NCBI GenBank assembly: GCA_020723305.1
Contig: DYJC01000024.1
Span: 1 to 64,000 of the forward strand
From: Desulfosudis oleivorans
GTDB taxonomy: Bacteria > Desulfobacterota > Desulfobacteria > Desulfobacterales > SURF-7
Direction: 5' to 3'
DNA: 64,000 nucleotides
How positions within the stretch are numbered: the first letter of the stretch is position 1; every line of letters starts with the position of its first letter. Position numbers and translations under genes: made by a program. Under the pieces are notes generated by a model that saw nothing but the letters and a program-made list of their open reading frames with translations, did not search any database and had not been told where the DNA came from. Shown piece by piece: positions 17,277-43,393 of this stretch.

Positions 17277-17295
17277 AAGACCGCCTCCTTTTATT

Positions 17296-17323
17296 GTAGG
17301 GGCGGTTCGCGAACCGCCCCTAC
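17296..17323. repeat. Perfect 28-bp palindrome, dispersed-repeat type
   Basis: Two 14-base arms (17296-17309 and 17310-17323, each with GGGGCGG or CCGCCCC) are exact reverse complements, and TATTGTA/TACAATA extends the symmetry outward with a 4-base offset. Read through, it encodes CRGGSRTAPT, a peptide often seen as spurious N-terminal extensions in this group. That identifies it as a dispersed REP/MITE-like unit. It sits in the 97-base gap between the MetF-like and NuoG-like genes, 20 bases from the latter's start, and could form a strong hairpin in the mRNA. Confidence 0.7.
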
Positions 17324-17373
17324 ATACAATAGCCGGGAGTTTCATAATATGAATTCCGACTCCTGGATTCTTC

Positions 17374-20935: not shown

Positions 20936-21699
20936 CAGCCGGTTGCAGTCATTGCATATATCTGCACGAATATCTGATCATTGTCAAATCCTTTCAGACG
21001 GATGGCTCCGGAACGGCAGGAAGCCACACATGATCCGCAACCCTTGCAAAGAACCGGATTGATTTTGGCTTTGCCGGGGAATACCTCAGCTTTTTTATCA
21101 ATCATCGAGGGGGCTGAATACGGGCAGATTGAGGCACAAACCCCGCAACCGCTGCATATTCGAGGAGCGACTTCTGCAATGTTACCGCTGGTTTGAATTG
21201 ATTTTCGGGCAAGCAGGGTTACTGCACGGGTTGCTGCCGCTATTGCCTGGGCAATGGACTCATCAATCGGCTTGGGCGCGTGAGCCAGACCGCAGATAAA
21301 CACTCCGTCCGTTGCGCAATCCACAGGCCTGAGTTTGGCGTGGGCTTCCATGAAAAAGCCATCGTTGTTTAACGTGACCTTGTATTGCTGCGCCAGGGGA
21401 TTTTCTTTTGGCGGTGTAATGGCCGTAGCCAGTACCAGCAAATCCGGGGTAATTTCAAGTTTGCGCCGGAGAACAGTATCTTTAAAACTGATTTTCAGAT
21501 CCTTTTCATCCAGAAAAACATCCAGCCCCTGATCTGCTTGATACCGGATAAAGATAACACCTTTTTCTCTGGCTTCCCGGTACAGGTCTTCACGCAATCC
21601 ATAAGCACGCATATCCCGGTACAGAATATATACATCAATTTCCGGGTTCAGCTTTCGAAGCTGCAAGGCGTTTAGATACTGATCCGGCTTTAATTCCAT
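20935..21699 (-). pseudogene. Truncated hdrA duplicate with 168-bp in-frame deletion
   Basis: The 254 residues are nearly identical to the C-terminal third of the HdrA encoded at 30117-33161. They include the ferredoxin motifs [16 protein letters not shown] and [16 protein letters not shown]. The FAD half, the N-terminal domains and the Sec site are absent. Relative to the intact gene, exactly 56 codons are missing between ELKPDQYL and NALQLRKL (intact-copy positions 30856-31023), removing the CVGSR and CSKVCC cysteines. Homology ends near 21717. It shares one base with the histidine kinase start. A translated product could still be a two-cluster ferredoxin-like protein, but decay is more likely. 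Confidence 0.8.
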
Positions 21700-21717
21700 T
21701 GCACCGGAGGCAAGTAC
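20935..21717. repeat. Left copy of a direct repeat flanking the helicase/methyltransferase module
   Basis: This stretch matches 30117-31063 in the same orientation with scattered mismatches and one 168-bp gap. The two copies bracket the foreign-looking plus-strand module at 21858-29770. Confidence 0.75.
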
Positions 21718-21857: not shown

Positions 21858-24800
21858 ATGAACTATTCAGCAATTAGAGATAATCATGCTAATGGTACAG
21901 TTGGTGATTTTCTCAAGCAGGTTATTGTAACAAACTCTGAAGTCTCTATTGTTTCAGCCTACTTTACCATTTATGCATATCGTCAATTAAAAAATAATCT
22001 CGATAGCATTAAAAAGCTTCAGTTTTTATTCGGAGAACCCACTTTTATTAAATCCCTTGATCCAGATAAAGTAAATACCAGGGATTTTAAAATTGAAGAC
22101 GACAAGCTGACGATTCCGCTTGAAAGCAGACTTACCCAAAAAGCATTAGCCAGGGAGTGTGCCCAATGGATTCAAGATAAAACAGAAATTCGATCAATGG
22201 TGAAACCAAATTTTTTGCATGGAAAACTTTATCATGTGAAACAGGAAAGCGGGATTGAAAAGGCGATTGCAGGCAGTTCAAATTTTACCGTTAACGGGCT
22301 TGGGCTTGGCGGAAGTAAAAACATTGAACTCAATCTGATTATTGACAGCGATAGAGACCGGCAGGAACTTAAACACTGGTTTGATTCCATCTGGAATGAC
22401 TCAACTGGTCTTGTCGAAGATGTCAAGGAAGAGGTTCTAAAGTATCTTCAGCAGTTGTATATCGAAAATGAACCGGAGTTTATTTATTTTAAAACGCTCT
22501 ACCACATTTTTGAAGGCTACCTGAGCGAACAGAAAAAAGGCGGCCTGTTAGACGAAAAAACAGGTTTTTATGATAGTGAAGTATGGAATATGCTCTATGA
22601 TTTTCAGAAAGATGGGGTTAAGGGAGCTATCAATAAGATAATAAAACACAACGGATGTATTATTGCGGATAGCGTCGGTTTGGGTAAGACTTTCGAGGCC
22701 CTGGCTGTGATTAAGTATTTTGAACTTCTGAACGCCCGTGTTCTTGTTATTTGCCCCAAAAAATTGACTGGTAACTGGACGGTTTATCAGGCAAGCCAAA
22801 ACCATTCTTTAAACCCTTTTAAAAAGGACCGTTTCAATTACACGGTTCTATATCATACTGACATGGGCCGAGAGTCAGGGCATTCGGATGCGAATGGTAT
22901 TGATCTTGGGAATTTTCACTGGGGAGCTTTTGATCTTGTTGTCATTGACGAATCCCACAATTTCCGGGGCAATCCCATTGAAAAGGTGAAGGATGACGGC
23001 AAAATCAAAATGAACCGTGCCAAATCGCTCATGGAAAAAGTGATAAAGTCCGGTGTAAAAACAAAAGTTTTAATGCTTTCCGCCACACCGGTAAACAATA
23101 CCCTTCGGGATCTGAGGAACCAGATCGCATTTATTACCGAAGGAAAAGAAGACGCCCTGTTTGAAACCTGTAAAATTAAAAGCATCGGAACAACGCTTGA
23201 AAATGCACAAAAAAACTTTACCCGCTGGGCAGACCCGAAAAATAAATCAAGGACCATGAAACAGTTGTTGGAGAGATTGGATTCTGCTTTTTTCAAGCTT
23301 CTGGATGAACTCACGATTGCCCGCTCTCGGAAGCATATTGTCAAATTTTACCACATTGAGTCTATTGGGAGCTTTCCCAAAAGAGAAAAGCCCCATTCTG
23401 TTTATCCTGATATTGACCTGGGAAAACGGTTTCCTTCTTACGACAGAATCAACAAGCAAATCCTTGAATACAGACTATCTGTTTTTAACCCTTCGGCCTA
23501 TGTCAAACCAGGCAAACAAAAAAAATATGAGGATCTGGCAGGGGGAGAAGTTCTTAATTTCACACAAGCCAACCGTGAAAATTTTCTCATCGGCATGATG
23601 AAAGTCAATTTCCTTAAGCGCCTTGAAAGTTCAATCGAATCCTTTGAGATATCCCTTGACCGGACAATCCTGAAGATTGAAAATTTGGAACGGAAAATCA
23701 AAAGTTTTCTTGAAAGCAAAAGTCAGGGTCAAGAAGAAACGCTGGAAAGTTTCACGCCTTCTGATGAAGAACTAGAAGAAAACATCGATGAAGCTGACGA
23801 GTGGCAGGTTGGTAAAAAGCTGAAGTTTGACCTGGCCGACCTGGAGTTGGAAGCATGGAAGTCAGATCTTCAAAAGGATAAAGACGCACTTATTGATCTG
23901 CTGAATAATGCCAAAGCCGTTGATCCTTCCCGTGATGCGAAAATGAAAACGCTTAAAGATCTTATCCAAAGTAAAATCCAAACACCCCAAAATAGAAACA
24001 ATAAAAAAGTCATCGTGTTTACTGCTTTTGCCGATACAGCCCGATATCTCTACGAAAACTTGAAAGACTGGATCAGAACCAAGATAAAACTTCATTGTGC
24101 GCTTGTATGTGGAAACTACACACAGACGACTTTCGGCAAAAGCGATTATGACAGCATTCTGGTAAATTTTTCCCCTGTATCCAAAAATCGGGCAAGGCTG
24201 AATCATTCCAACCAAACGGATGAGATTGATATTCTGATTGCAACAGACTGTATCAGTGAAGGCCAGAATTTACAGGATTGTGATTTTCTTGTAAATTATG
24301 ATATCCATTGGAATCCGGTAAGGATTATTCAAAGATTTGGCCGTATTGACCGGCTTGGGAGCATTAATAAAACGATACAATTGGTGAATTTCTGGCCGAC
24401 CCGGGATCTGGACAATTATATCAATCTGAAAGAGCGGGTGGAAGCCCGCATGGCGCTTGTGGATGTTACTGCAACAGGGGAAGACAATATTCTCAATACC
24501 GAGCAGTTGGAGGATCTGATTACTGATGATCTGAAGTACCGCAACCGGCAATTGAAAAAATTGCAAAACGAAATACTTGACCTGGAAGAGATGGACGAGA
24601 CGATTTCTTTAACGGATTTTACCCTCGATGATTTCAGAATCGAATTGCTTAACTTCATCGAAGCCAACCGAAAAAGATTGAACGATTCACCCATGGGGCT
24701 TTATGCAATTGTTCCCGCCCCGGGAGGTGACTACGGAAGTCTCATTAACGGCAGAAAAATTTCATCTGCTGAAAAAGAAGTAATCAGACCGGGTGTCATT

Positions 24801-25193
24801 TTTTGTCTGGCCCAGAAAGGACAAACCGACGGCAATGAAGAAGTGAATCCGTTGAACCCGTATTTTCTTGTTTATGTCCGGGATGACGGGACCGTCCGTT
24901 ATAATTATACAAACGCCAAGCAGATTCTGGAAATTTTCCGTCTGCTTTGCCAGGGGCAAAAAATGCCTTATGATGAACTCTGTGCATTGTTTAACGAAGA
25001 AACGGCAAACGGTGAAAAAACAGATAAATATTCAGAATTGCTAAAAAAAGCAGTACATGAAATTGTGCATGTGTTCAAGAAAAAACATCATATCAAGTTG
25101 ACTACTGACCGTGGGGCAGTGCTGATACCCAAATCAAAACAGGTCAGCGAAATGGAAGATTTTGAACTGGTAACCTGGCTGATAGTGAGGTAA
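21858..25193 (+). CDS. PLD-nuclease-like domain fused to SNF2-family helicase
   Basis: The protein is 1111 residues. The N-terminus (about 1-190) is a phospholipase-D-like nuclease fold with HGKLYHVK (HxK, about residue 120) and AGSSNFTVNG (GSxxN, about 138). It is followed by a superfamily 2 SNF2/DEAD ATPase: Walker A DSVGLGKT (about 272), Walker B VVIDESHNF (about 362), motif III MLSATPVNN (about 407) and motif VI IQRFGRIDRLG (about 824). A coiled-coil insert separates the two RecA lobes. In known defence systems such proteins translocate on DNA and cut it. It is 7 bases from the KilA-N gene and works with the methyltransferase, so a restriction role is inferred. Confidence 0.85.
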   Translation: MNYSAIRDNHANGTVGDFLKQVIVTNSEVSIVSAYFTIYAYRQLKNNLDSIKKLQFLFGEPTFIKSLDPDKVNTRDFKIEDDKLTIPLESRLTQKALARECAQWIQDKTEIRSMVKPNFLHGKLYHVKQESGIEKAIAGSSNFTVNGLGLGGSKNIELNLIIDSDRDRQELKHWFDSIWNDSTGLVEDVKEEVLKYLQQLYIENEPEFIYFKTLYHIFEGYLSEQKKGGLLDEKTGFYDSEVWNMLYDFQKDGVKGAINKIIKHNGCIIADSVGLGKTFEALAVIKYFELLNARVLVICPKKLTGNWTVYQASQNHSLNPFKKDRFNYTVLYHTDMGRESGHSDANGIDLGNFHWGAFDLVVIDESHNFRGNPIEKVKDDGKIKMNRAKSLMEKVIKSGVKTKVLMLSATPVNNTLRDLRNQIAFITEGKEDALFETCKIKSIGTTLENAQKNFTRWADPKNKSRTMKQLLERLDSAFFKLLDELTIARSRKHIVKFYHIESIGSFPKREKPHSVYPDIDLGKRFPSYDRINKQILEYRLSVFNPSAYVKPGKQKKYEDLAGGEVLNFTQANRENFLIGMMKVNFLKRLESSIESFEISLDRTILKIENLERKIKSFLESKSQGQEETLESFTPSDEELEENIDEADEWQVGKKLKFDLADLELEAWKSDLQKDKDALIDLLNNAKAVDPSRDAKMKTLKDLIQSKIQTPQNRNNKKVIVFTAFADTARYLYENLKDWIRTKIKLHCALVCGNYTQTTFGKSDYDSILVNFSPVSKNRARLNHSNQTDEIDILIATDCISEGQNLQDCDFLVNYDIHWNPVRIIQRFGRIDRLGSINKTIQLVNFWPTRDLDNYINLKERVEARMALVDVTATGEDNILNTEQLEDLITDDLKYRNRQLKKLQNEILDLEEMDETISLTDFTLDDFRIELLNFIEANRKRLNDSPMGLYAIVPAPGGDYGSLINGRKISSAEKEVIRPGVIFCLAQKGQTDGNEEVNPLNPYFLVYVRDDGTVRYNYTNAKQILEIFRLLCQGQKMPYDELCALFNEETANGEKTDKYSELLKKAVHEIVHVFKKKHHIKLTTDRGAVLIPKSKQVSEMEDFELVTWLIVR

Positions 25194-25200
25194 GCGATAA

Positions 25201-26013
25201 ATGAAAAACCGGAAAGTTGATGTTCAGGGTGTTGAGATACGAATTATTAAGGTGAATACCGAAGATTATATTTCAATTACAGATATGCTTAAGGCGAAAG
25301 ACGGTGATTTTTTTATTTCTGACTGGTTAAGAAATCGAAACACTGTAGAATTTTTAGGTATTTGGGAAAGTGTTCATAATCCGGGTTTTAATTATGGCGA
25401 ATTCGCCACAATTAAAGGTCAGGCTGGTTTGAACAGTTATAAAATCAGTGTCAAGGAATGGACGGAAAAAACAAATGCCATTGGGTTGAGGGCAACAGCA
25501 GGACGATATGGCGGAACTTTTGCCCACATAGATATCGCCTTTGAGTTCGGGATGTGGATAAGTGCTGAATTTAAAGTATATTTGATTAAAGAGTTCAAAC
25601 GCCTCAAAGACGATGAAAACAACCGTCTGAAGCTGGAATGGAATCTTCAGCGTACCATTGCAAAAATCAATTATCGCATACATACCGACGCTATTAAAGA
25701 AAATCTGATCCCTCCGGAACTATCAAAAAAGCAAACTCAGATCGTCTATGCAAGTGAAGCAGATATTCTTAATATGGCCATGTTCGGCATGACCGCCGCG
25801 CAATGGCGGGGCAGCAATCCGGATAAAGATGGTAATATCCGGGACAGTGCAACGCTGGAGCAGCTCGTGGTGTTGTCCAACCTCGAAAGCATCAATTCTG
25901 TGTTGATCCATCAGGGGCTATCGCAGGAGCAGCGTTTGATTCAATTGAATACAATCGCTATCACCCAGATGAAATCACTATTGGGAAATAATAGCATCAG
26001 GAAATTAAGGTGA
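25201..26013 (+). CDS. KilA-N domain protein
   Basis: The protein is 270 residues. Residues about 1-140 form a KilA-N domain: YISITDMLKAKDGDFFISDWLRNRNTVEFLGIWE, then AGRYGGTFAHIDIAFEFGMWIS and FKVYLIKEFKRLK. Only fragments are quoted here; the motif order matches phage and mobile-element KilA-N proteins. The C-terminal half contains ASEADILNMAMFGMTAAQWR and is helical. KilA-N is a DNA-binding domain, often a phage antirepressor or a regulator inside defence islands. Position between helicase (7-base gap) and methyltransferase (4-base gap) shows translational coupling, so it may be a specificity or regulatory factor of this module. Confidence 0.8.
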   Translation: MKNRKVDVQGVEIRIIKVNTEDYISITDMLKAKDGDFFISDWLRNRNTVEFLGIWESVHNPGFNYGEFATIKGQAGLNSYKISVKEWTEKTNAIGLRATAGRYGGTFAHIDIAFEFGMWISAEFKVYLIKEFKRLKDDENNRLKLEWNLQRTIAKINYRIHTDAIKENLIPPELSKKQTQIVYASEADILNMAMFGMTAAQWRGSNPDKDGNIRDSATLEQLVVLSNLESINSVLIHQGLSQEQRLIQLNTIAITQMKSLLGNNSIRKLR

Positions 26014-26017
26014 TTCA

Positions 26018-29000
26018 ATGTCCGATAAAGATGTAAAATTGGCCATACAGTCTGCTGTTAAATCGTTTGCCTCAGGGGATATAAACGATCAGTCCATTAC
26101 CCTGTTTCAAATCCTTGGCTATAATACCGCGCGCCAAAATCCATTTCCCAAAAAGACCTTTTCGTATTTTAAGGATTCATTTCTTGAAGGGAATTTGCGT
26201 TTTAATGAGGACAAAGCGCAGGTCAAGGAATGGAAATTCATTGATCTGTTATTTCAGTTGACACGGGAAGAACTGTCCGGCCAGAAAAGTCTGTTTGATA
26301 CAGGCAGGGTTAAGTGGGAAGGTCAAGACAAGGAAACGGTAATCGAAACCTATCTTTTCTTTGCACTTGAACTGGTTAAAGCGGAATACACCCGAACGGC
26401 CCTGGCTCAAATTACACGCGAGATCAACAAAGTGTTTCCCATGCCGGTGATGGTCATTTTTAAATACGGTGAACACCTGACGTTGTCTGTGATTAACCGC
26501 AGGCTGAACAAGAAAGATGAAAGAAAAGATGTCCTTGAAAAAGTGACGCTGATCAAGGATATTTCCATCGTAAATCCACACAGGGCGCATATTGAAATCC
26601 TGTTTGATCTGTCTTTTAAAGAACTTCAAAGAATCCATAAGGTCACTGGCTTTGTGGAACTCCATAATGCCTGGCAGAAAACGCTGGATACCAGAGAGCT
26701 GAACAAGCGGTTTTACCGGGAACTGTCCAACTGGTATTTCTGGGCTATGCGCGAAGTTATCTTTCCTGGTGCCGACCTGGAAGCTGACAAGACAGGTTTA
26801 TTCAAAAAGGAGGATAAGGTCAGAGAACATAACGCTAAAAATCTGATCCGTCTGCTGACGCGGATTCTCTTTGTATGGTTTATCAAAGAAAAAAATCTGG
26901 TGCCGGATGTGCTTTTTGATGAAACATATATCCGGGAGAATCTGATCAGCGATTTTGTACCTCGCAAAAGATCAGGGTTCAACCATAAAACGCAGGGGAG
27001 CAAGTATTATCGGGCTATTCTGCAAAATCTTTTTTTCGCCACGCTCAATCAAACCATTGGTAAGCGGGGGTTCCGTAAGGAAGGCCAGCAAATGAATGTG
27101 ACCAACCTGATGCGGTATGAAAGCTACTTCAAAAACCCAGAAGCATTCATCAATCTGGTGGAGGAGGTGGTGCCGTTCATGAATGGTGGGCTGTTTGAAT
27201 GCCTGGATAGCCCCGACCCTCTGCTGAAAGGGAAAAAAGGCGGAGATGTTATCAATTATGAAGATGGCTTTTCCGATCGGAAGGATAATTCACTTTGTGT
27301 TCCGGACTATATCTTTTTCGGTGTTGGAGAAAATGCGGATCTTTCCGAAGAACTCGGGAATAAAAAGCAGAAAGATGTAACGGTCAATGGACTGATTAAT
27401 ATCCTCAAAAGCTACAAGTTCACCATAACTGAAAATACACCCATTGAAGAAGATATTGCCCTTGACCCGGAACTCCTGGGCCGGGTTTTTGAAAACCTGC
27501 TTGCATCTTATAACCCGGAAACCAGAACCACAGCCCGCAAACAGACCGGCAGTTTTTATACACCCCGCGAGATCGTCAGCTATATGGTGGATGAATCCTT
27601 GAAAGCGCACTTTAAGCAAAAGCTGGAAACAGAAGCAGGCATGAGTCCGCTTGACGCAGAGACCGGCCTGGAATTGCTGCTGGGCTACAACGAAAAAGAA
27701 CATCTTTTTGATGAAAAGCAGACGGCTGTCCTCATCAGCGCCATTGATACCTGTAAAATCCTCGATCCAGCCTGCGGTTCCGGCGCGTTCCCCATGGGGA
27801 TACTCCACAAACTCGTTCATATTTTACATAAGCTTGATCCATACAACAGACTCTGGAAAGAGCGGCAGATCGAAAAGGTTGATGGCCTCATTAAAGAGGC
27901 TGGAAATATTAATGACTCAGCGATCCGGGATAAAATAATTTTTGATCTGGAAGCCAATAAACTGGACATCGAAGAATCCTTTGCCAATAATGAACTGGAT
28001 TACGGGCGAAAGCTCTACCTGATTGAAAACTGCATTTACGGTGTTGATATTCAGCCTATAGCCACCCAGATCAGCAAGCTCCGATTTTTTATCTCCCTGA
28101 TTGTTGACCAAAAGTCTGATAAATCAAAGGATAATAATTTTGGCATCCGGCCCTTGCCTAATCTTGAAACCAAGTTTGTCGCTGCCAATACCCTTATTGG
28201 AATTGAAAAACCAGCTCAGCAACTGCTTCTTTTTGAAAATCCAAAAGTAAAAGAACTTGAAGAAAAGCTAAAAGATGTACGTCATCGGTTATTCAGCGCC
28301 AAAACCCCAATAACAAAACGTAAACTCCGGGATGAAGACCAGAAATTGCGAGAGCAAATGGGGAATTTATTGATCCAACAAGGCTGGGGCAATGAGACGG
28401 CCCGCCAGCTTGCAGCCTGGGACCCCTATAATCAGAACGTTAACAGTCCATTCTTTGACCCGGAATGGATGTTCGGGGTTGCAGGCGGATTTGATTTGGT
28501 GATTGGGAATCCGCCATATATTAATATTTCTAACCTAAGACCTGATGAATACCGTTTAACTTTGCGTTCAAAATTTCGTTCAGCAAGGAATAAATCTGAT
28601 ACTTATGCATTTTTTTTAGAACAAGGATTTATCCTTCTTAAGAAGAATGGAACTTTAAGTTATATTATTCCACAAACTTGGAAAGCTACTGATAGTTTTT
28701 CTAAACTGCGTGAAATTATTTTTAAAGAAAAATCTTTGGTGAAAGTTATCGATTTAGATTTTAGCACCTTTGATAGTATCGTTAAACCCATGGTAGTTCT
28801 TATTTTAAATGAGTTTGGTAAAAGTAAAACAGTTGAGATTTTCGATCAATCTTTTTCTAAAATTTCTGAAATATTAATTGATGAAGTAATGGCTGATTCA
28901 ACGTTATCATTTAATACAAGTCTTAGCGATAATCAGAAAAGAATCAACAAGTTAATTGAAAACGGAAGTGTTAGGATAGAAACGATTATTCAATTTTCTA

Positions 29001-29770
29001 GAGGCATAAAAACAAGTGATGATAAAAGGTTTATTCACAACACCCAAAAAAATTCTGATTACAAGCAAGTTTATCGAGGGAAAAATATAAAATCTTATCA
29101 GCTGAATTGGGGCGGTGAATATATTTGGTATAGGCCTGATTTGATGAAAGAGAAAGTTGGTTCGGTTTCATACACAAAAGATTTATTTGAAGTACCTGAA
29201 AAACTGATTACGCAAAGAGTCAATAGTTCAATGCAGTTACTATGTGCCTATGACAATAAAAAAAATTATTTTATCGACACAACGCTTTTTTCGCGATATG
29301 AAACTTGGGATAACAAAACTTCATTAAAATATCTTTGCTCAATTCTCAATTCAACATTGATTAACTACTGGTATTGCAATAAATATCTAATGCCTACAAT
29401 CGGTATCTACGAATTACATTCCATTCCAATAAAAATTTCAATGCAGCAAGACAAATATTCAATAATTGCAGATTATATAATTGGGTTAAAGGAAAAACAG
29501 ATTAACAGCTCATTTTTTGAAGACCTTATCGACGCCATGGTTTATGAGCTCTACTTCCCCGAAGAAATCAAATTCGCTGGCTGTGAGGTTCTCAAATACA
29601 TCACCAACCTGCCCGAATTGAAAGACGGCTGGTATGGTGACGAAAAAAAACTTGCGGTTATAGAGAAAGTTTATACGGAACTGTCAGACCCAAATCATCC
29701 TGTCGCTATTGCCATGGAAAAACAGAAAGCCGTACCGGAAGTCCGGATCATCGAGGGCCTGGACAAATGA
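26018..29770 (+). CDS. Eco57I/PglX-like adenine-specific DNA methyltransferase
   Basis: The protein is 1250 residues, the size of type IIG or PglX-type enzymes. Motif I is ILDPACGSGAFPMGIL (about residue 582) and motif IV is VIGNPPYINI (about 829), giving an N6-adenine (NPPY) methyltransferase. The N-terminal 560 residues are helical with no nuclease motif I can recognise. The C-terminal part is a TaqI-like target-recognition region. Bases about 28530-29500 are markedly more AT-rich than the rest, suggesting exchange of the recognition domain. It follows the KilA-N gene by 4 bases. It would protect self DNA while the helicase/PLD protein acts on unmodified DNA. Confidence 0.85.
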   Translation: MSDKDVKLAIQSAVKSFASGDINDQSITLFQILGYNTARQNPFPKKTFSYFKDSFLEGNLRFNEDKAQVKEWKFIDLLFQLTREELSGQKSLFDTGRVKWEGQDKETVIETYLFFALELVKAEYTRTALAQITREINKVFPMPVMVIFKYGEHLTLSVINRRLNKKDERKDVLEKVTLIKDISIVNPHRAHIEILFDLSFKELQRIHKVTGFVELHNAWQKTLDTRELNKRFYRELSNWYFWAMREVIFPGADLEADKTGLFKKEDKVREHNAKNLIRLLTRILFVWFIKEKNLVPDVLFDETYIRENLISDFVPRKRSGFNHKTQGSKYYRAILQNLFFATLNQTIGKRGFRKEGQQMNVTNLMRYESYFKNPEAFINLVEEVVPFMNGGLFECLDSPDPLLKGKKGGDVINYEDGFSDRKDNSLCVPDYIFFGVGENADLSEELGNKKQKDVTVNGLINILKSYKFTITENTPIEEDIALDPELLGRVFENLLASYNPETRTTARKQTGSFYTPREIVSYMVDESLKAHFKQKLETEAGMSPLDAETGLELLLGYNEKEHLFDEKQTAVLISAIDTCKILDPACGSGAFPMGILHKLVHILHKLDPYNRLWKERQIEKVDGLIKEAGNINDSAIRDKIIFDLEANKLDIEESFANNELDYGRKLYLIENCIYGVDIQPIATQISKLRFFISLIVDQKSDKSKDNNFGIRPLPNLETKFVAANTLIGIEKPAQQLLLFENPKVKELEEKLKDVRHRLFSAKTPITKRKLRDEDQKLREQMGNLLIQQGWGNETARQLAAWDPYNQNVNSPFFDPEWMFGVAGGFDLVIGNPPYINISNLRPDEYRLTLRSKFRSARNKSDTYAFFLEQGFILLKKNGTLSYIIPQTWKATDSFSKLREIIFKEKSLVKVIDLDFSTFDSIVKPMVVLILNEFGKSKTVEIFDQSFSKISEILIDEVMADSTLSFNTSLSDNQKRINKLIENGSVRIETIIQFSRGIKTSDDKRFIHNTQKNSDYKQVYRGKNIKSYQLNWGGEYIWYRPDLMKEKVGSVSYTKDLFEVPEKLITQRVNSSMQLLCAYDNKKNYFIDTTLFSRYETWDNKTSLKYLCSILNSTLINYWYCNKYLMPTIGIYELHSIPIKISMQQDKYSIIADYIIGLKEKQINSSFFEDLIDAMVYELYFPEEIKFAGCEVLKYITNLPELKDGWYGDEKKLAVIEKVYTELSDPNHPVAIAMEKQKAVPEVRIIEGLDK

Positions 29771-30103: not shown

Positions 30104-30116
30104 CAGACTTACCGCA

Positions 30117-31063
30117 TCATCCAGCCGCAGTCATTGCAAATATCTGCGCGAGTATCTGATCGTTGTCAAACCCCTTCAGCCGGATAGCCCCGGAACGGCA
30201 GGATGCCACACATGATCCGCAGCCCTTGCAAAGAACCGGATTGATTTTGGCTTTGCCGGGGAAGACCTCAGCTTTTTTATCAATCATAGCAGGGGCTGAA
30301 TACGGGCAGATGGAGGCACAAACCCCGCAGCCGCTGCATGTTCTGGGAGCGACTTCTGCAATGTTACCGCTGGTCTGAATTGATTTTCGGGCAAGCAGGG
30401 TTACTGCACGGGTTGCTGCCGCTATTGCCTGGGCAATGGACTCATCAATCGGCTTGGGCGCATGAGCCAGACCGCAGATAAACACTCCGTCCGTTGCACA
30501 ATCCACAGGCCTGAGTTTGGCGTGGGCTTCCATGAAAAAGCCGTCGTTGTTTAAGGTGACTTTGTATTGTTGCGCCAGCGGATTTTCTTTTGGCGGTGTG
30601 ATGGCCGATGCCAGTACCAGCAAATCCGGAGTAATTTCGAGTTTGCGCCGAAGGACCGTGTCCTTGAAACTGACCTTCAGATCTTGTTCATCCAGAAAAA
30701 CATCCAGCCCTTGATCCGCATGATACCGGATAAAGATAACACCTTTTTCTCTGGCTTCCCGGTAGAGGTCTTCACGCAATCCATAAGCACGCATATCCCG
30801 GTAAAGAATATATACATCCATTTCCGGGTTCAGCTTTCGAAGCTGCAAGGCGTTTTTGATGGAATGGGTGCAGCAGACCTTGGAGCAATAGGGCCGCTCG
30901 GGAATCCTGGACCCGACACACTGAATAAAAAGAGCAGATTTTTTCTGCGATATGGCCGGGTCATTTTCAATCAGTTTCTGATCCAGCTCAAGACCGGTCA
31001 GCACCCGTTCATCCCGGCCGTAAAGATACTGATCCGGCTTTAATTCTGTTGCGCCGGAGGCAA
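30117..31063. repeat. Right copy of the direct repeat (3' third of intact hdrA)
   Basis: This corresponds to 20935-21717 in the same orientation. It contains the 168 bases (30856-31023) missing from the left copy. Confidence 0.75.
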
Positions 31064-33161
31064 TAATCGCAACTCCATATTCAAGTTCCGCTGTTTTATC
31101 CGGCATCTGAATGGTAGTCTTGTAGTTTCCGACAAAACCATCTGTTTTTATGATTTCAGAGTTTGTAAAAATTTCAATATTTTTATCTGCCTGAATCTCG
31201 GCGATCATGCGGCTAACATTCTCTGAAACATTCTCTCCCTGCCATGTCTCATGAATCTGCAGGGCCTGACCGCCGAGGCGGCCGCTTTTTTCTATCAGAT
31301 ACGTGTGGTATCCTTGATTGGAAAGGGTTTTCGCGGCTGTTATTCCGGCGATGCCGCCGCCGATGACCAGAGCAGACTGATTGATCAGAAGGTTAGCCTC
31401 TGTCAAAGGTTCCATGAGGGAAGCCTTTGCAACCGCCATCCGGACCAGATCTTTTGTCTTTTCGGTTGCCATCTCGGGATTGTTTTTATTGACCCAGGAA
31501 CACTGATTCCGGATATTGGCCATCTCAAAGACATACTTGTTCAAGCCGGCGTTTATGAGGGTCTCCTGGAAAAGCGGTTCATGGGTTTTGGGCGTACAGG
31601 CAGCCACTACTACCCGGTTCAACTGTTTTTCCCGGATAATCTTGGCCATATTATCCTGGGTGTCCTGCGAACAACTGAACATGTTTTTTTCAGTATATGC
31701 GACATTTTGCAAGCTCTTTGCATATTCAACCACCACCGGAACATCAACCACTCCGGCGATATTGGTGCCGCAACAGCAGACAAAAACACCGACCCTGGGT
31801 GGATCGCCGCGGGTATCCATTTCTTTGGGTATTTCTTTCTGTTTGGTCAGCGACCAGCGGGCCTCGGCAAGACAGCTTCCGGCGATTCCGGCTGATGCGC
31901 TTGCTTCAATGACAGAGGAGGGGATATCTTTCGGAGCTTCAAATGCGCCGCAAACAAAAATACCCGGCCGGGATGTTTGGACCGGTTCAAAGCTGTTGGT
32001 TTTGACAAAACCATAAGTATCCAGGCTAATACCCATGGCGTTTGCCAGATCAACTGCTGATTTATTCGACCCCAGACCGACAGAGAGCACCACGATATCA
32101 AATTTTTCTTCAACCCGTTTGCCGGATTCGTCAAAGTACCGGATCAGTTGATCGCCGCTGTCCGTCGGTAGGATATGTGTAATTTTGGATTTGACAAACC
32201 GGACACCGTATTCATCCTTGGCCCGGTTGTAATATCTTTCAAAGTCTTTTCCATGGGTGCGGATATCCATATAAAAAATGGCCGTATCCAGAGGCTCCTT
32301 GCTGTGTTCTTTGGACAGCATGGCTTCTTTGATGGCATAGGTGCAGCAGACCGAAGAACAATACCCCCTGGCTCCGATATGTACATCCCTGGATCCGATA
32401 CACTGAAGCCATGCGATTTTTTTGGGTTCTTTTTTGTCTGACGGCCGGACCAGGTGTCCGCCATACGGACCGGAAGATGAAAGTATCCGTTCAAATTCCA
32501 GGCTGGTGACGATGTTTTCAGAATTCCCGTAACCATAAACATCATGAGGCTTCGGATCATAGGGTTCACAGCCATTGGCCAGGATAACGGCCCCTACAGT
32601 AAGGGTTATCTCATTAATTTTATCATTGAAATTGATGGCGCCGGTAGGGCACAGCTTTTCACAGGCCCTGCATTTCCCTTTGGTCAGGTAAATGCAATAA
32701 TCGGCATCAATGGTATATTTCAGAGGGACTGCCTGAGCATACTTGACATAAATGGCCTTTCGGTCACTCAAGGCACCATCGTATTCATTGGCCACTTTTT
32801 TGGGGCATTTATCCGCACACAGTCCGCAGGCAATACACTTTTGAGTATCCACATAACGGGGATACTGCTTCAAGGATACCTCAAAGTTGCCATGTTCACC
32901 GGAAATGTTTTGAACTTCCGATAACGTCAGTAACTCTATATTGATGTGCCGGCCGACCTCGACCAGTTTGGGTGAGATGACTCACATGGCACAATCATTG
33001 GTAGGGAAGGTTTTGTCAAGTTGGGACATTACCCCGCCGATGGAAGACGATCTCTCAACAAGATAGACATAATAACCGGAGTCAGCCGCATCCAGAGCCG
33101 CCTGCATTCCGGCAATTCCACCGCCAACCACCATCACAGCGCCAATTTCTTTCTGAGACAT
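30117..33161 (-). CDS. hdrA: Selenocysteine-containing heterodisulfide reductase subunit A
   Basis: Read from the ATG at 33159-33161 (GGAGA upstream), the frame has one in-frame UGA at 32982-32984, codon 60, and then runs to 30117, giving 1014 residues. Before the [23 protein letters not shown] (FAD) and [10 protein letters not shown]; after it: [20 protein letters not shown]. Known HdrAs have NDCxMC here, so UGA replaces a conserved Cys. Ferredoxin motifs follow at about 109 ([12 protein letters not shown]) and 152, a second FAD half at about 594 ([19 protein letters not shown]), and C-terminal clusters [12 protein letters not shown] and [11 protein letters not shown]. HdrA is the flavin-bifurcating core of Hdr complexes. 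It follows hdrB by 9 bases. Confidence 0.88.
32949..32966 (-). promoter_or_regulatory. SECIS-like hairpin for selenocysteine insertion
   Basis: On the coding strand, 15 bases after the UGA, CUGGUCG pairs with CGGCCGG (7 base pairs including two G-U) around a 4-base loop AGGU. The loop begins 22 bases after the UGA. Bacterial SECIS elements are short hairpins with a G/U-bearing loop at about this distance, recognised by SelB. Confidence 0.7.
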
Positions 33162-33170
33162 TTTTTTCTC

Positions 33171-34043
33171 CTACTCCAAAAATGATTCTAATCTGCTGAT
33201 ATCGAGCACATGTCTGCTTAACCCCAAGGAATTGCCATCGATGCCCATGGCAAGCCCGAGAAGCTGGGGAAATACGATGCTTGGCAGACTTTGGTTCAAT
33301 TTCTGAGCAGACACCATCATTTGCTGAACTGTGTCAAATTGCATCTGGCAATATGGACAGGCAACACACAGATAGTCTGCGCCGGCCTGTTTGCCGTCGA
33401 TAATTTTTCTTTCAGTTACACCCATGGAAAGACTGTCATGGACACCCAGAAGCGGAGCGCCGCAGCATTCAAGCTTTAATGGCCAGTCGATGCTTTGAGC
33501 GCCTGTGGCGGAAACCAGTTCATCAAATAGAACAGGTGCAACCGGGTTATCAAACCCGGTGATGTCACTGGGCCGCAGGGCATGACATCCATAGTGGGTT
33601 GCAATTTTAATTCCTTTGAATGACCGCGTGGTTTTCTCTTTGAGAGCATGGATACCGATGTCATGATAAAGAACGGAGAGAAAATGCTTCACTTCGGAGG
33701 TTCCTTTATATTGTAATCCTTCTCCGGCCAGCATCCCGTTCACTTCTTTCTGAATGGAAGGGTTCTGTTTCAACAGATGGGCAGCTTTTTTCAGGCTGCC
33801 GAAGCAGCACTTGCAAAGTACCATCATATCCAGACCCTGTTTTTCCGCAAGAGCAAGATTCCTTGCGGCCATCAAGATAAAAGTCTTGTTATCGGTATTC
33901 CGGATCGGATTGCCGCAGCATTTGAATTCACTGTTTTCCACAACCTCAATGCCGAGTTTGTCCAGCACGGCCCTGGCAGAGAGTTCATACTGCTGAACCC
34001 TGACCGGAATGTTACAACCCAGAAATAATGCAAATTTCATCAT
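33171..34043 (-). CDS. hdrB: HdrB-like subunit with two CCG domains
   Basis: The protein is about 290 residues. It begins KFALFLGCNIPVRVQQYE and contains two cysteine-rich CCG domains: CCGNPIRNTD with CKCCFGSLKKA, and CCGAPLLGVHDSLS with CVACPYCQMQFD. In methanogen HdrB these bind non-cubane [4Fe-4S] clusters that reduce disulfides. I chose the ATG at 34041-34043 (CAGGGATACC upstream); the ATG at 34070 is possible. It lies between the HdrC-containing fusion and hdrA. In a sulfate reducer the acceptor could be a disulfide such as DsrC trisulfide or an unknown thiol. Confidence 0.85.
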   Translation of the reverse strand: MMKFALFLGCNIPVRVQQYELSARAVLDKLGIEVVENSEFKCCGNPIRNTDNKTFILMAARNLALAEKQGLDMMVLCKCCFGSLKKAAHLLKQNPSIQKEVNGMLAGEGLQYKGTSEVKHFLSVLYHDIGIHALKEKTTRSFKGIKIATHYGCHALRPSDITGFDNPVAPVLFDELVSATGAQSIDWPLKLECCGAPLLGVHDSLSMGVTERKIIDGKQAGADYLCVACPYCQMQFDTVQQMMVSAQKLNQSLPSIVFPQLLGLAMGIDGNSLGLSRHVLDISRLESFLE

Positions 34044-34079
34044 GGTATCCCTGTTTAACAGCGCGCTCATCAGATGGTT

Positions 34080-35561
34080 CTATTCTGAAGAACGGCTTGC
34101 CTCCTTTGCGGCAAGGTTTTTAAGCTCATAAAATATATCGGTCACTTTCACTCCCTGGGGGCAGTGCTCCTGACATTGGTAGCAGGTCAGACAATACCAC
34201 AGCATTCTGGAACCCATTGCCAGGTCTTTGACACCGAATCCCATGGAACGTATGATCTGATGGGGCAGCAGATCGAGGTACTCCTGTGGATTTTCGTAAT
34301 TGCCGACCACAGGGCATACGGTTGAACAGTTTTCACATGTAAAGCAATAGGAATAGGTTCCGGTGCGTGTAGAAAGATCGGCTGACTCCTTGAATTCCCT
34401 GTTTGCCGGTGTCAATGAAATGATCTCTTCGGTTTTATTTACCAGTTCAAAAGGATCGGTCAGGTCTTTTTCCGCTTTATGTAATGGATTGTCATACTGC
34501 GCCGGGTCCAGTTCCTGCTGCTTGAGTCCCCTGTAGAAAGAAAAAGGAGTCAGCATCAGAGAAACGGAATGCCCGCGTTGAATCATCTCTTCCCTGACAT
34601 TGAACCAGAGGTCCCTTAGATTGATCCCTGCCGGACAGTTGATTGTACAGCGGTCACAGTTGGTGCAAAGGTATATTCCCTGCTGAATCGCCGCCAGACC
34701 CTGTGCATTGATATTTTTTCGGGTAATATAATCCTTCAGAAATGTCATTCTTTCCGACGGCAGGATATTTTCATTCCCGATACTGTCAAAGGCAACCGCG
34801 ACAGAGCAGTGGAAACTGCACGTGCCGCAATGGGTGCAGGAATCCAGTTCCATAACCTGCCGGGTCATGATATTGGCCGGATCGGAGTTTTTGTCCATAA
34901 CCGAATTGGCCAGCAGGCTTGCCGGTGTAGTAAACAGGTGGAACATTTTGCTGAAGGGCAGATAGGCAAGCCCCAGGAAACAGGTCAGGATATGAATATA
35001 CCATATTTTCTGATAGTGGTTGTAAGATGTGAGTTTGGTAGACTCCAGTGCAATGCCGGAGAGCATGATGATCGCCAGCAAAATGATGACATATTGATCC
35101 ATGGCATTGGTTTTCAGTCGCGGCACTTTTAAAATAAAACGGCGGTAGACAGCGATGGCGATACCTGAAATCACCAGGCATCCGGAAAAAAGAAGGAATG
35201 GATTGAGCTTCAGATAATACCTGTCGAAAAGTGAAGTCGGTATGACTCTGTCAAGGGCATGCGTGAAAAAAAGGAACATGAAACCGGCATAAATCAGCAT
35301 ATGCATGAGCCACCGGAGCTTGTCATTTTTCAATACCCGTATCTGAAAAAGCACGTCCATGATAAAAACCCGGATCAGCGTCCCAAGCTTTTGACTGAAT
35401 ATGACCGCAATCAGCCCTTTCAGTGCAGCCGGGATTCTTGCCGATATCGTCTTGTTCTTCGCATGGATACCGATACTGAAACGGAACCAGCCTGAAATTT
35501 TATATATCAGACCGATTCCAAAGACTGTCAGGGCTGCATACAGCACGATATTGTAAAACAT
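34080..35561 (-). CDS. HmcE/HmcF/HdrC-type fusion: cytochrome b with four Fe-S clusters
   Basis: The protein is 493 residues. The N-terminal 230 form a NarI/DsrM-like membrane domain of about six helices with likely haem-b histidines in LRWLMHMLIYAGFMFLFFTH and WYIHILTCF. The cytoplasmic part carries CTHCGTCSFHC and CTNCDRCTINCP (HmcF-like), then CFTCENCSTVCP and CLTCYQCQEHCP (HdrC-like). Known Hmc operons have separate hmcE and hmcF; here the membrane haem subunit is joined directly to an HdrC-like domain that should dock on HdrB. This gives a physical path from membrane quinone to the cytoplasmic Hdr complex. It ends 36 bases before the preferred hdrB start. Confidence 0.85.
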   Translation of the reverse strand: MFYNIVLYAALTVFGIGLIYKISGWFRFSIGIHAKNKTISARIPAALKGLIAVIFSQKLGTLIRVFIMDVLFQIRVLKNDKLRWLMHMLIYAGFMFLFFTHALDRVIPTSLFDRYYLKLNPFLLFSGCLVISGIAIAVYRRFILKVPRLKTNAMDQYVIILLAIIMLSGIALESTKLTSYNHYQKIWYIHILTCFLGLAYLPFSKMFHLFTTPASLLANSVMDKNSDPANIMTRQVMELDSCTHCGTCSFHCSVAVAFDSIGNENILPSERMTFLKDYITRKNINAQGLAAIQQGIYLCTNCDRCTINCPAGINLRDLWFNVREEMIQRGHSVSLMLTPFSFYRGLKQQELDPAQYDNPLHKAEKDLTDPFELVNKTEEIISLTPANREFKESADLSTRTGTYSYCFTCENCSTVCPVVGNYENPQEYLDLLPHQIIRSMGFGVKDLAMGSRMLWYCLTCYQCQEHCPQGVKVTDIFYELKNLAAKEASRSSE

Positions 35562-35644: not shown

Positions 35645-35788
35645 TTATAACAGCTTATTTTCATCATCCTTTCCGGATAGAAATCTCCAGAACAATGCAA
35701 TACCAATCAGAGCGGCGATCATCAGAAGATAGAGAACTCCCTTGGTATATGTAAGATAGTCCTGATAGGTATAAAAAATGGTTTCCAT
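35645..35788 (-). CDS. hmcD: HmcD-like 47-residue membrane peptide
   Basis: The short frame reads METIFYTYQDYLTYTKGVLY, a membrane helix LLMIAALIGIALFWRF, and a charged tail ending DDENKLL. The ATG at 35786-35788 has AAGGAGG 9 bases upstream. Hmc and Tmc-type operons carry a very small one-helix subunit at this position, between the NrfD-like subunit and the cytochrome b subunit. Position and topology support the assignment; homology is too short to prove by eye. Confidence 0.75.
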   Translation of the reverse strand: METIFYTYQDYLTYTKGVLYLLMIAALIGIALFWRFLSGKDDENKLL

Positions 35789-35819: not shown

Positions 35820-36992
35820 TTAGTGGACATCCTTGTACTCCGGGTGCTCGTAGAAAATAGGCATTTTGGTTACAATAAATCTGAAAATGACAATGCCGAC
35901 AGTTACGATAAAAACCGATGTGGCGATTTCCATCCAGTGCGGGAAATATCGTTGACTGGAAGGAAGCTGCCAGTTAAATGCAATCAGACAGACATTCAGC
36001 CGGTTGATGACAATGCCGATCACTGTCCATGCGGCAGTCCATTTGATCAGTTTTACGTCCCTGTTCCGGACGCCTATGGCATATAAGAATGACGGTAAAG
36101 CAACAAACCCTATCAATTCGACGAGAAACCAGATCCCATAAGGGGTTACCAGCAGACTCCAGTTATCTCCCCCGGCGATTCCCATCACCTTTATGATAAA
36201 ATAACCCGCAAGCACCAGGGATGCGGCTTTTCCGAAACCCAGGGTTACGCCTTGATTTTCATTCAGATGCGTCTCGTCCATTTTATCATGAAAAAAATGG
36301 TGGGAAAGCGTGCTTTCAAATATCACCATGGACAACCCTGCGATAATGCTGGATACGAAAAAGTAGACCGGCAGATAGGGCGAATACCACAGGGGATGAA
36401 GTTTGGACGGCGCGATCAGGAAAAGGGCGCCTAAAGAAGATTGATGCAGTGTGGAGAGAACAACACCCAGTATTGTCAGGGCCAGGGTCAGCTTCACAGC
36501 AAGTTCTCTTACTTTTTTAATCCCCAGCCATTCCAGCGGAGCCGGCACGAATTCAAGGAATAAAACCGTCAGGTAGAGCGCAACGCATGCAGCCACTTCA
36601 AAAAGAAGGGATGATGTTCCCTGCTGTATGATAAAAGGATATGGCAGGCGCCAGGGTCTGCCGACATCATAATTCAGGGCGAAAACAACAAGCGAATAAC
36701 CGAGAAATCCGGTCAGGACTGCCGGTCTCACCGCAGAATGGTATTTTTTCATTCCGAAAAGATACACAGCTGCTGATGTAACATATCCTCCTGCTGCAAG
36801 GGCCACTCCGACAAGCAGATCAAAGCCAATCCATAACCCCCATGGATTATCGTTGGAAAGATTGGTGACCGCTCCCAATCCCATCGTAAACCGCAGGATG
36901 GTGAGCACAATCCCGACGATGATGATGGAACCGGACACAATATTAAAAGGGGTCAACCATGTTTTGACCTCCATTGCAGGTTTGTCAGACAT
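35820..36992 (-). CDS. hmcC: HmcC, NrfD-family quinone-interacting membrane subunit
   Basis: The protein is 390 residues with about ten membrane helices of the NrfD/PsrC family. The start TPFNIVSGSIIIVGIVLTILRF and the region LSNDNPWGLWIGFDLLVGVAL are typical of HmcC/HybB/DsrP proteins. These subunits bind menaquinol without haem and pass electrons to a 4Fe-4S partner. Its ATG overlaps the stop of hmcB. It precedes hmcD. Confidence 0.88.
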   Translation of the reverse strand: MSDKPAMEVKTWLTPFNIVSGSIIIVGIVLTILRFTMGLGAVTNLSNDNPWGLWIGFDLLVGVALAAGGYVTSAAVYLFGMKKYHSAVRPAVLTGFLGYSLVVFALNYDVGRPWRLPYPFIIQQGTSSLLFEVAACVALYLTVLFLEFVPAPLEWLGIKKVRELAVKLTLALTILGVVLSTLHQSSLGALFLIAPSKLHPLWYSPYLPVYFFVSSIIAGLSMVIFESTLSHHFFHDKMDETHLNENQGVTLGFGKAASLVLAGYFIIKVMGIAGGDNWSLLVTPYGIWFLVELIGFVALPSFLYAIGVRNRDVKLIKWTAAWTVIGIVINRLNVCLIAFNWQLPSSQRYFPHWMEIATSVFIVTVGIVIFRFIVTKMPIFYEHPEYKDVH

Positions 36993-38008
36993 CAGATATC
37001 CTCCTTGGTTCGGGGCTGGGCAGCTTTTTCAACAGCATTTTTTGTTTCTTTTTTGACCTTTGCAAGGGCATCGGCCAGTTTTGAATTTGCCTTATCGGAA
37101 GCAGTCCGGACTGCCTCTTCAAGCTCCTGCTGAAAAACAATTTCTTTGCGTTTGGATATGGCGTATATTCCCGTTAAAAGCACAGGCCATAATCCCACAA
37201 CCATGGGAACCGCTGAAAGAGCGCCGGAGGTCAGTTCGGGAGCCGGTGTAACACCAAGGTCCTCCCGCATGCCAACCTCTGAAAAAGGGGCACTCGAAAT
37301 ATACAGCCAGCTTGTGCCGCCCATTTCCGTCTCGCCATATATGTGATCAACATACCTGCCCGGATATTTGCGAAACCGATCGTGTGCGAGCCGGATCAGA
37401 TCCTCCCTTTTCCCGAATGTCATTGCCTCTTTGGGGCAGGCCTCGACACATCCGGGAAGTTCGCCCTTGATGACCCTGGGATAGCACATGGTGCATTTCA
37501 TGATACGGGGAGTCAGCGGTTCATCATATTCATAGGTCGGAATATCAAAAGGGCAGGCGATCATGCAATAACGGCATCCGACGCATACGGTGGGATCATA
37601 GGTAACGGCACCGGTTTCCGTTTTTTTGAATGCCTTCACAAAACACGCAGATGCGCAGGCAGGCTCCAGACAATGATTGCACTGATTTTTTCTGAATACC
37701 GGGGCTTTTTTTCCAGGGACTTCATATTGATTAACCACGGTATAAGCCTTTTCGGTTGTTCTTCTTTTTTCCTGCAAAACGGAAAGATCCGTAAATGGTT
37801 TATCGGGCAAGGGAAGCTCGTTTACATTGGCGCAGGCTGCCTCACAACTCCGACATCCAACACACAGTGTTATGTCATGCAAAACACCAAAACTTCCGGG
37901 ATAACCTTCAAAATGCTTATTGCCGGCGGCAAAAGCTGATTTACCTGCAACAGATCCTATACCCGCCGCGCCTATCCACTTTAGACATTTCCTTCGTGAT
38001 ATGGACAT
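36992..38008 (-). CDS. hmcB: HmcB, Tat-exported ferredoxin subunit with C-terminal anchor
   Basis: The protein is 338 residues. The start [19 protein letters not shown] is a twin-arginine signal. Four [4Fe-4S] motifs follow in DsrO/HybA order: [52 protein letters not shown] and [22 protein letters not shown] hydrophobic segment near residues 265-285 ([20 protein letters not shown]) anchors it to the membrane, and a Lys/Ala-rich tail follows on the cytoplasmic side. It would pass electrons between cytochrome HmcA and the NrfD-type HmcC. Confidence 0.88.
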
Positions 38009-38034: not shown

Positions 38035-39615
38035 TTAACTTTTTTTCTCTTTATGACAATCAATACACCCGGCCGGTTTTTGAATGCCCATCTCTTGATG
38101 GCATCCCATACATTGCTGATGATATGCACCCATGATTCCGGGTTTTAAAGGATTTTCTCCATCAAAAACTTTTCCATGGCAATTACCGCATTGAGGTGGT
38201 TTTTTGGAAACAGGGCTGTTATGGTGGCAACCTTTGCAGATCGTTCCTTCCTGACTGTGGAAATATCCTGCAAGCTTGTTGTCTTTGATATTGTTTACTA
38301 TAGCATTGACAATCTTGCGATGCGGAAAATCAACCGGCTCGTACTGGTTGCTCAGTTTTTTGATTACAACCTTCTCCGGAATATCGACTTCATTATACGT
38401 TCCGGTAATTGGTTTTCTGGACGTTAGCATTTCAGCAGCCAATGATTTTCCGGTTTCCGGGTCACCTGTTTTTTCCATTTCAGATACCGGTACCATATGG
38501 CACTTTCCGCATGAATCATCTTCCTTTTTGTGCATTTTACCCATGAGGGCGTGACAGCCTGCACAGTTTTTTTCTTCCTGTTTTATGCTGTGGCAACCCA
38601 TGCAGCTCTTGTCTGTATCAAGCTGATGCATGGCATTTTCGAGATTTACCTCTTTGCCTTCCTTTATTCCAGCAAGGGTATGGCATTCGTTGCACGGCTT
38701 GAGGCTCTCATGGTGACAGACCCGGCAGGTATCATTGTTCTTTTCGTGCACCTGATGATCAAAAGGAACAAAATTCATCCTGTTTTGTTTTCCGGCATCC
38801 GCTTCCAAGGCTTTTTGATCTGCCTTGATCAGAACAATATCCGGCTGTTTCCGTTCCATTCTTGGAACAGGTGATATTTTTTTAATTTTCTGTTGTGCCG
38901 CTGGATCATGACACCCTGAACAGGTTACAGGGCCGCCGGCCAGATGGTTCGCCAGATTTTTGGTATGGCAGTTGATGCAGGCAATATGGGATGCCTGGCG
39001 CATTGAAATCGGTTTGTCTTTTAATTCAGTTTTGTGGCAGTACCGGCAGGTTCCTTCTTTTCCCTTGGCATAAAAAAGCTTTTTTTCCTTTTCATTATAT
39101 TCATGATGGCATTGTTCGCATTTATTTTCCTGTGCTTCGGAATGACGGAAGTGAAGAGATTTATCAAACCCCATGGGCTGTCTGGAAGATGAATACAGCG
39201 CTTTTTCCCTGTGGCAGCTATCGCACTCAACCGGCCCGGATTTCTCGCGTGCCACCTTCATTTCTCCATGGCAGGATATGCATTCTTTATGATAAAGATT
39301 CATCACCTCTATCCTATCCTCATCCTTGATTCGTTTGAATTTTGGGAAAATCCGGTCATTCACGGTCAAATGGCAGGCTGTGCAATCCAGTTTCTTTTTG
39401 GCCAGGGCTTTGGTGTGAGCATCGTGAAGAAATTCAACAGGCTGTTTTTCAAGCAGGGCAAAACGTTTCAGGAAATCGATTTTAATGATATCAGCCCGGG
39501 TATGAGAAGTATCTTTTAAAATCGGGCCTGACCCGTACAGACTGGTATAAAATATCAAAACAGTGGAAACCGCTAAAAAACAGGCCAAACGAATCAGGTG
39601 TTTTCCCTTATTCAT
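38035..39615 (-). CDS. hmcA: HmcA, 16-haem cytochrome c
   Basis: The protein is 526 residues with an N-terminal export/anchor helix (LIRLACFLAVSTVLIFYTSLYG, about 8-30). I count sixteen CxxCH haem-attachment motifs: CTACH, CISCH, CDSCH, CEQCH, CRYCH, CINCH, CSGCH, CRVCH, CNECH, CMGCH, CAGCH, CGKCH, CKGCH, CGNCH, CMGCH and CIDCH. That number and the c3-like spacing match the high-molecular-weight cytochrome HmcA. It accepts electrons from periplasmic hydrogenase or formate dehydrogenase via cytochrome c3. AAGGATT precedes its ATG. It is the first gene of the hmc-hdr operon. Confidence 0.92.
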   Translation of the reverse strand: MNKGKHLIRLACFLAVSTVLIFYTSLYGSGPILKDTSHTRADIIKIDFLKRFALLEKQPVEFLHDAHTKALAKKKLDCTACHLTVNDRIFPKFKRIKDEDRIEVMNLYHKECISCHGEMKVAREKSGPVECDSCHREKALYSSSRQPMGFDKSLHFRHSEAQENKCEQCHHEYNEKEKKLFYAKGKEGTCRYCHKTELKDKPISMRQASHIACINCHTKNLANHLAGGPVTCSGCHDPAAQQKIKKISPVPRMERKQPDIVLIKADQKALEADAGKQNRMNFVPFDHQVHEKNNDTCRVCHHESLKPCNECHTLAGIKEGKEVNLENAMHQLDTDKSCMGCHSIKQEEKNCAGCHALMGKMHKKEDDSCGKCHMVPVSEMEKTGDPETGKSLAAEMLTSRKPITGTYNEVDIPEKVVIKKLSNQYEPVDFPHRKIVNAIVNNIKDNKLAGYFHSQEGTICKGCHHNSPVSKKPPQCGNCHGKVFDGENPLKPGIMGAYHQQCMGCHQEMGIQKPAGCIDCHKEKKS

Positions 39616-43332: not shown

Positions 43333-43393
43333 TGAATATACTCCTGAAGCAATGCGTTGTCATGGAAGTCCGTTCTTCTACAACCTGTTATCA

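Follow-up and report, generated by a model that had tools for sequence, protein, structure and literature searches.

A predicted selenoprotein HdrA with two fused flavin units, encoded in an Hmc–Hdr operon of Desulfosudis oleivorans

The hdrA gene that forms the end of a combined hmc–hdr operon in Desulfosudis oleivorans is almost certainly a selenoprotein gene, in which the UGA at codon 60 is read as selenocysteine. It occupies positions 30117..33161 on the minus strand of the window, i.e. the whole stretch of 64,000 nucleotides (positions 1 to 64,000 of contig DYJC01000024.1, assembly GCA_020723305.1) that was analysed here, and its predicted product is a fused (double) HdrA of 1014 residues. 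Selenocysteine-containing HdrA as such is already published (PMC1794560, PMC2702500, PMC5109826 and, with a CxxU motif, PMC13188914), and we claim no novelty for the presence of selenium in HdrA. What we describe are the evidence for selenocysteine in this particular protein, the probable role of this residue within a double HdrA and the operon in which the gene is found.

Between the ATG at 33161 and the TGA stop codon at 30119–30117, the hdrA frame is open save for one TGA, codon 60 (32984–32982), which stands in the context NDCAM-U-VISPK. This is the place of the second Cys of a CxxC motif, at which other homologues carry Cys; Cys57 is present and the motif thus reads CxxU. The original prediction had put a single UGA at the second Cys of NDCxMC in an otherwise open HdrA frame, and had stated that a conventional start at 32873 would cost HdrA its first FAD domain, and the frame is as described on both counts: the open reading frame of hdrA under the standard code runs from TTG 32873 and is without the first FAD motif. 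That translation begins at this TTG, with the upstream part being unused, is what the standard code would have one assume, but such a start would drop two motifs that homologues keep, namely CxxC/U and the one for FAD binding, and the codons directly past the UGA are frozen (see below), which makes it very improbable. Sec-HdrA genes in general are prone to mis-annotation, because standard gene calling cuts off the N-terminus, and the same error has been pointed out for Methanocaldococcus (PMC12054007).

A lone stop in an intact frame, when seen alone, could also be taken for an error in sequencing or for a pseudogene with a nonsense mutation of recent origin. However, UGA is found at this very codon in the nine closest orthologues, all of which belong to other assemblies, as well as in six more genes of the same genome, and protein identity is high over the full length. 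As the UGA recurs in paralogues and in other species, a base error is untenable, and the probability of an error or a pseudogene is negligible. The seven HdrA-type genes of this genome with UGA at the codon-60 position are the window gene, L006, L007, L008, L013, L015 and L016. Of these, L015 and L016 (also contained within L021 and L022) are HdrL-like, with lengths of 1494 and 1481 codons, and have both the UGA and the hairpin sequence in common with the window gene. An HdrA-type gene at C4 has TGT at this position, and further HdrA-like matches without a stop exist in the genome.

The alternation between UGA and Cys is also seen on a wider scale. Scanning genome contigs yielded 66 HdrA loci, with one of the six search patterns introducing a bias by taking U as Cys, and all of the nine closest loci (L029–L037, 72–90% identity) have TGA; the closest orthologue found (90% identity) belongs to a MAG labelled Desulfocicer vacuolatum. 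In the complete set of tblastn rows, a stop stands opposite residue 60 in 9, Cys in 87 and another letter in 79, and 6 rows leave it uncovered; locus L076 gave no tblastn hit. An exchange of Cys and selenocysteine at codon 60 had been anticipated and was found: whenever a row has an identity of 46% or more and extends over residue 60, it shows either a stop (9 rows, all TGA) or Cys at this residue, and nothing else. The 79 rows with another letter are 24–45% identical and appear to represent second flavin domains or other flavoproteins. Moreover, each of the 12 family genomes searched, including that of D. oleivorans itself, has at least one match with one TGA (anywhere in the match) among the matches listed, and several of them also have matches without a stop among those listed.

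The components required for selenocysteine incorporation, on whose presence the original prediction hinged, are all encoded in the genome (G000; 97.87% complete, 3.65% contamination). These are a tRNA-Sec at C45 (73.3 bits, gathering threshold 47; reported by ARAGORN as tRNA-SeC with anticodon tca), SelB at C37 (382 bits, curated cut-off 242), SelA at C6 (623 bits, curated cut-off 268) and SelD at C41 (376 bits, curated cut-off 125). This bears on yet another way of reading the UGA, namely as some other amino acid such as Trp or Cys under a variant code, for which one could invoke the Cys found at codon 60 in homologues. TGA, however, is also a normal stop codon, which ends 4 of the 14 window genes checked, and with tRNA-Sec, SelA, SelB and SelD all at hand, a variant code is hardly conceivable. 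As a separate observation, the selD gene (L018, G000:C41:10371-11294) itself contains one in-frame TGA, with Sec-containing SelD being a known selenoprotein family (PMC1794560). Inspection of nine TGA read-through frames in the window, which is less than a full search, gave no second selenoprotein that we would accept, as the TGAs concerned are located at gene ends, between neighbouring genes or in frames that we could not assign to a family.

Directly downstream of the UGA, a hairpin with a 7-bp stem and an AGGU loop had been claimed to begin after 15 bases, and it is indeed found at 32949..32966 (minus strand), where it is present in the MFE and centroid structures alike (−12.8 kcal/mol) and its synonymous positions are conserved. 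With its 15-nt spacer and the G in its loop, it has the features of a bacterial SECIS element, i.e. a stem-loop that closely follows the UGA and whose apical loop contains a G (PMC1794560). Its folding energy was rejected as proof, since it differs from that of shuffled sequences by a z of only −1.65 (12 of 200 shuffles fold equally well) and since the mean MFE of the 57 nt from codon 60 onwards is −11.95 in 15 UGA genes versus −10.76 in 37 Cys genes, with overlapping values. When 60-nt segments from genes of the same genome were folded, the hairpin appeared in the MFE structure of five of the six that share its sequence (the exception being L023), and the UGA gene L025 folded into a different hairpin. 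An Rfam scan of 32800–33200 returned only two sub-threshold eukaryotic families, which we take to be chance matches.

More telling is codon usage, which was compared between 15 UGA genes (six of the seven of the same genome plus the nine orthologues) and 37 Cys homologues, all sharing one motif; excluded from this comparison were L025 and those homologues in which the motif differs, e.g. SPFLVE. In a fixed register, all seven stem pairs are possible in 14 of the 15 UGA homologues, with six of seven in the remaining one, versus 3 of the 37 Cys homologues. Codons +5 to +11 are each represented by a single synonymous codon in the UGA genes (two in the case of Arg), whereas two to six are used in the Cys genes. 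Flanking codons of the same genes, which served as a control for relatedness, are mostly variable in both sets, with codon +2 (Ile, ATC) being invariant in the UGA set. Among 428 seven-codon windows drawn from 434 eligible columns of the 15 UGA genes, K65–R71 has the lowest mean normalised entropy (0.02, versus 0.76 overall). Codon-invariant are 11 of the 434 columns, i.e. I62, K65–G70, C464, D473, Q532 and I550, so that codon 62, which is outside of the hairpin, and four codons elsewhere are likewise invariant among these 15 genes. Because synonymous codons over the hairpin are frozen in UGA genes and variable in Cys homologues, the conserved hairpin after the UGA is, on this comparative evidence, a SECIS element. 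The selenocysteine machinery, the exchange of UGA and Cys in homologues and the frozen hairpin codons jointly support the predicted selenoprotein nature of HdrA, and the best overall explanation is very probably that the UGA at codon 60 is decoded by SelB and tRNA-Sec under the direction of the stem-loop 15 nt downstream.

What might selenocysteine do at this position? The HdrA protein of the window has two flavin domains. By phmmer, residues 10–379 align to residues 147–511 of 5odc_A, ungapped around the motif, such that residue 60 (the UGA at 32982..32984, minus strand) falls on residue 197, a Cys, and residues 454–625 align to residues 3–174, i.e. the N-terminal domain of 5odc_A. The first half of HdrA has Sec60 at the Cys197 position and is without an N-terminal cluster domain. 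The second half starts with such an N-terminal-type cluster domain (31596..31778, minus strand), the proposed partner of Sec60; in this half, the residue corresponding to Cys197 is Asn648, and Cys is absent from residues 590–720. Cys462, Cys464, Cys497 and Cys522 of the N-terminal-type domain are Cys in all 15 UGA genes aligned; under a stricter motif pattern, 8 of 16 proteins had all three motifs. With two flavin domains and a complementary distribution of the Cys197 position and the N-terminal domain, the protein has the features of a fused (type II) HdrA. With 971.5 bits, the score of the best NCBIfam HdrA model, NF040770 (HdrA2), is below its cut-off of 1100, and we therefore do not file the protein as HdrA2.

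We take 5odc to be the M. thermolithotrophicus complex and presumably the structure discussed in PMC9012536, as Cys197 as well as E356 and K409 (PMC12054007) fall on Cys, E and K of 5odc_A. In PMC9012536, which names M. wolfeii as the source organism of the structure it discusses, the N-terminal Fe–S cluster of one HdrA is described as having Cys197 of the partner HdrA among its ligands, and Cys197 and the N-terminal domain are lost in a complementary manner from fused HdrAs of ANME archaea. The protein studied here likewise consists of two units in one chain, the first contributing a flavin domain and Sec60 and the second bringing the N-terminal cluster domain. Sec60 would then complete the coordination of the [4Fe-4S] cluster in this domain, such that a contact formed by Cys197 across two subunits of the methanogen enzyme would here be formed within a single chain. 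From these alignments, it seems reasonably likely that a [4Fe-4S] cluster within a fused HdrA has Sec60 as a natural selenolate ligand. Selenium had originally been placed at a redox centre next to the bifurcating flavin; the selenocysteine part of this proposal stands, whereas its location is more aptly described as that of a probable cluster ligand, given that the residue is aligned to residue 197 of 5odc_A and that Cys197 is a described ligand.

For the ligand step alone, a selenoprotein HdrA would also allow for Sec60 to be a redox-active selenol, for instance in a Cys57–Sec60 selenenylsulfide near the flavin. The motif is CxxU with Cys57 present, and CxxU/UxxC motifs are found in thiol-redox selenoproteins (PMC13188914). 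On the other hand, Cys197, to which Sec60 is aligned, has been described as coordinating the N-terminal cluster (PMC9012536), and an N-terminal domain is brought in by the second half, which has no Cys197 equivalent of its own. We regard a redox-active selenol as possible, if rather doubtful. Whether as cluster ligand or otherwise, selenocysteine is not tied to HdrA fusion, since L025, a UGA gene of the same genome, encodes a single HdrA with the N-terminal domain upstream in the same frame.

The two halves also differ at positions described as marks of bifurcating HdrA, i.e. E356 and K409 (PMC12054007). By manual count on the 5odc_A alignment, E224 and the lysine of VCCTYAIK in the first half are the equivalents of these residues, whereas D and K are present in the second half. 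Since it has E and K, the Sec-bearing first half is the likelier bifurcating half, with bifurcation activity itself being a prediction.

As for its genomic context, hdrA is the last gene in the order hmcABC–hmcE/hdrC–hdrB–hdrA, with all genes on the minus strand. The first is hmcA (38035..39615; NF045713 above cut-off), which encodes 16 CxxCH haem motifs, followed by hmcB for an Fe–S subunit (36992..38008; NF045715 above cut-off) and hmcC for a membrane subunit (35820..36992; NF045714 above cut-off). A 47-residue open reading frame with one hydrophobic stretch (35645..35788) is a candidate hmcD by size and position only, the HmcD protein of D. vulgaris having 5.8 kDa (PMC10920352). The next gene (34080..35561) encodes a NarI-like membrane part (PF02665 above cut-off) fused to HdrC-type Fe–S domains, on which the HmcE model scores 22 bits versus a cut-off of 275. 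It is followed by hdrB (33171..34070), with two complete CCG cysteine motifs and a TIGR03288 score of 258 bits, below the cut-off of 345; the NCBIfam HdrB and HdrC models in general match the neighbours of hdrA below their cut-offs. A separate HmcF-type protein is not found among the genes from hmcA to hdrA.

The six-gene operon is complete in six of the nine orthologous loci (L030, L031, L033, L035, L036 and L037); L032 is without HmcB and HmcC matches, and L029 and L034 are located on short contigs. At 1e-20, HmcA, HmcB and HmcC have no match in L038–L094 nor around the other HdrA genes of this genome (L020–L027), with many of these flanks being short. In the open-licence literature searched, where Hmc and Hdr complexes appear apart, we found no description of this operon. 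From the conserved gene arrangement, it seems fairly probable that the Hmc and Hdr proteins form one complex.

The window protein shares the family, the CxxU position and the UGA with a downstream SECIS with the Sec-HdrA proteins described for Deltaproteobacteria and methanogens (PMC1794560, PMC13188914). Several copies per genome are likewise known: Table 1 of PMC1794560 lists 16 bacterial Sec-HdrA proteins, seven of them in Syntrophobacter fumaroxidans, which compares with seven UGA genes here. The operon highlighted in that paper, however, is glpC-hdrA-frhD-frhG-frhA, whereas hdrA is found here with hmcABC, the hmcE-like/hdrC fusion and hdrB. For Desulfobacterium autotrophicum HRM2, a related bacterium, Sec-containing HdrA1, HdrA2, HdrL1 and HdrL3 are reported (PMC2702500). 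Besides its large Sec-HdrL proteins, there are HdrA-type frames with UGA in the genome studied here, which are 1481 and 1494 codons long. In HRM2, hdrA and hdrL genes are followed by mvhD (except for hdrA4), whereas hdrA comes after hmc genes here, and the Hmc complex is reported as apparently absent from HRM2 (PMC2702500). A MAG labelled Desulforapulum autotrophicum (L030) has the six-gene operon.

Fused HdrA3/HdrA4 proteins of type II in ANME archaea (PMC9012536, PMC12054007) are also two-unit chains in which the Cys197 position and the N-terminal domain complement each other, but there the N-terminal domain belongs to the first unit and Cys197 to the second, whereas the window protein has the opposite order and a predicted Sec in place of Cys197. 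The HmcABCDEF complex of sulfate reducers (PMC5109826, PMC5165239, PMC10920352) is matched here by HmcA, HmcB and HmcC above their cut-offs, by the NarI-like part and by the candidate HmcD. The place of the one HmcF-type protein with Fe–S and CCG domains in HmcABCDEF, however, is taken here by HdrB, HdrA and the HdrC-type domains, the last of these being fused to the membrane part.

Several other features were observed in the window. A truncated 3' copy of hdrA is located at 20932–21713 (minus strand), with 742 bp having 92.9% identity to 30114–30855 and an additional 40-bp piece (92.5%) being set off by an internal deletion of 168 bp. Between this copy and hdrA, there is a likely defence island (21858–29770, plus strand) with genes for a PLD/SNF2 helicase, a KilA-N protein (PADLOC PDC-S22) and a type IIG-like restriction–modification protein, and with a GC content of 0.37–0.44 versus 0.42–0.50 in the adjoining 2-kb bins. 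At 10969–17345 (minus strand), a NuoF/GltD-like gene (10969–14115) is found next to NuoE-like and NuoG/FdhA-like open reading frames, the latter two named by eye only, and this cluster adjoins a MetF-like gene and a response regulator gene; in the FdhA-like frame, the usual Cys/Sec metal ligand was not spotted by eye. Two very large genes for proteins of approximately 2380 and 2335 residues, the second with polyketide-synthase domains, are located at 43388–57597 (minus strand).

Taken together, the order of genes and the architecture of HdrA suggest a path for electrons across the membrane. The HmcABC/HmcE-like module would exchange electrons with periplasmic cytochromes and pass them on via HdrC to HdrA, where they would be split at the flavin, with ferredoxin on one side and an acceptor of the disulfide type at HdrB on the other, or joined in the reverse direction. 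The acceptor at HdrB is plausibly DsrC, which we take to be the likely partner of the HdrB encoded in the window. DsrC has also been proposed as an acceptor for Flx–Hdr (PMC6491731). The joint picture, i.e. that Sec60 is a selenolate ligand across the fused halves on the low-potential branch of an enzyme docked on Hmc, such that electrons from cytochromes are split and ferredoxin is reduced, is tentative, and we give it somewhat less than even credence.

If Sec60 does serve as a cluster ligand, there would be a testable reason for selenium in HdrA, namely that it tunes or protects the cluster on the ferredoxin branch, and the homologues with Cys would serve as natural controls. At the level of the operon, the association of Hmc with Hdr suggests that sulfate reducers may couple periplasmic cytochromes directly to electron bifurcation in the cytoplasm.
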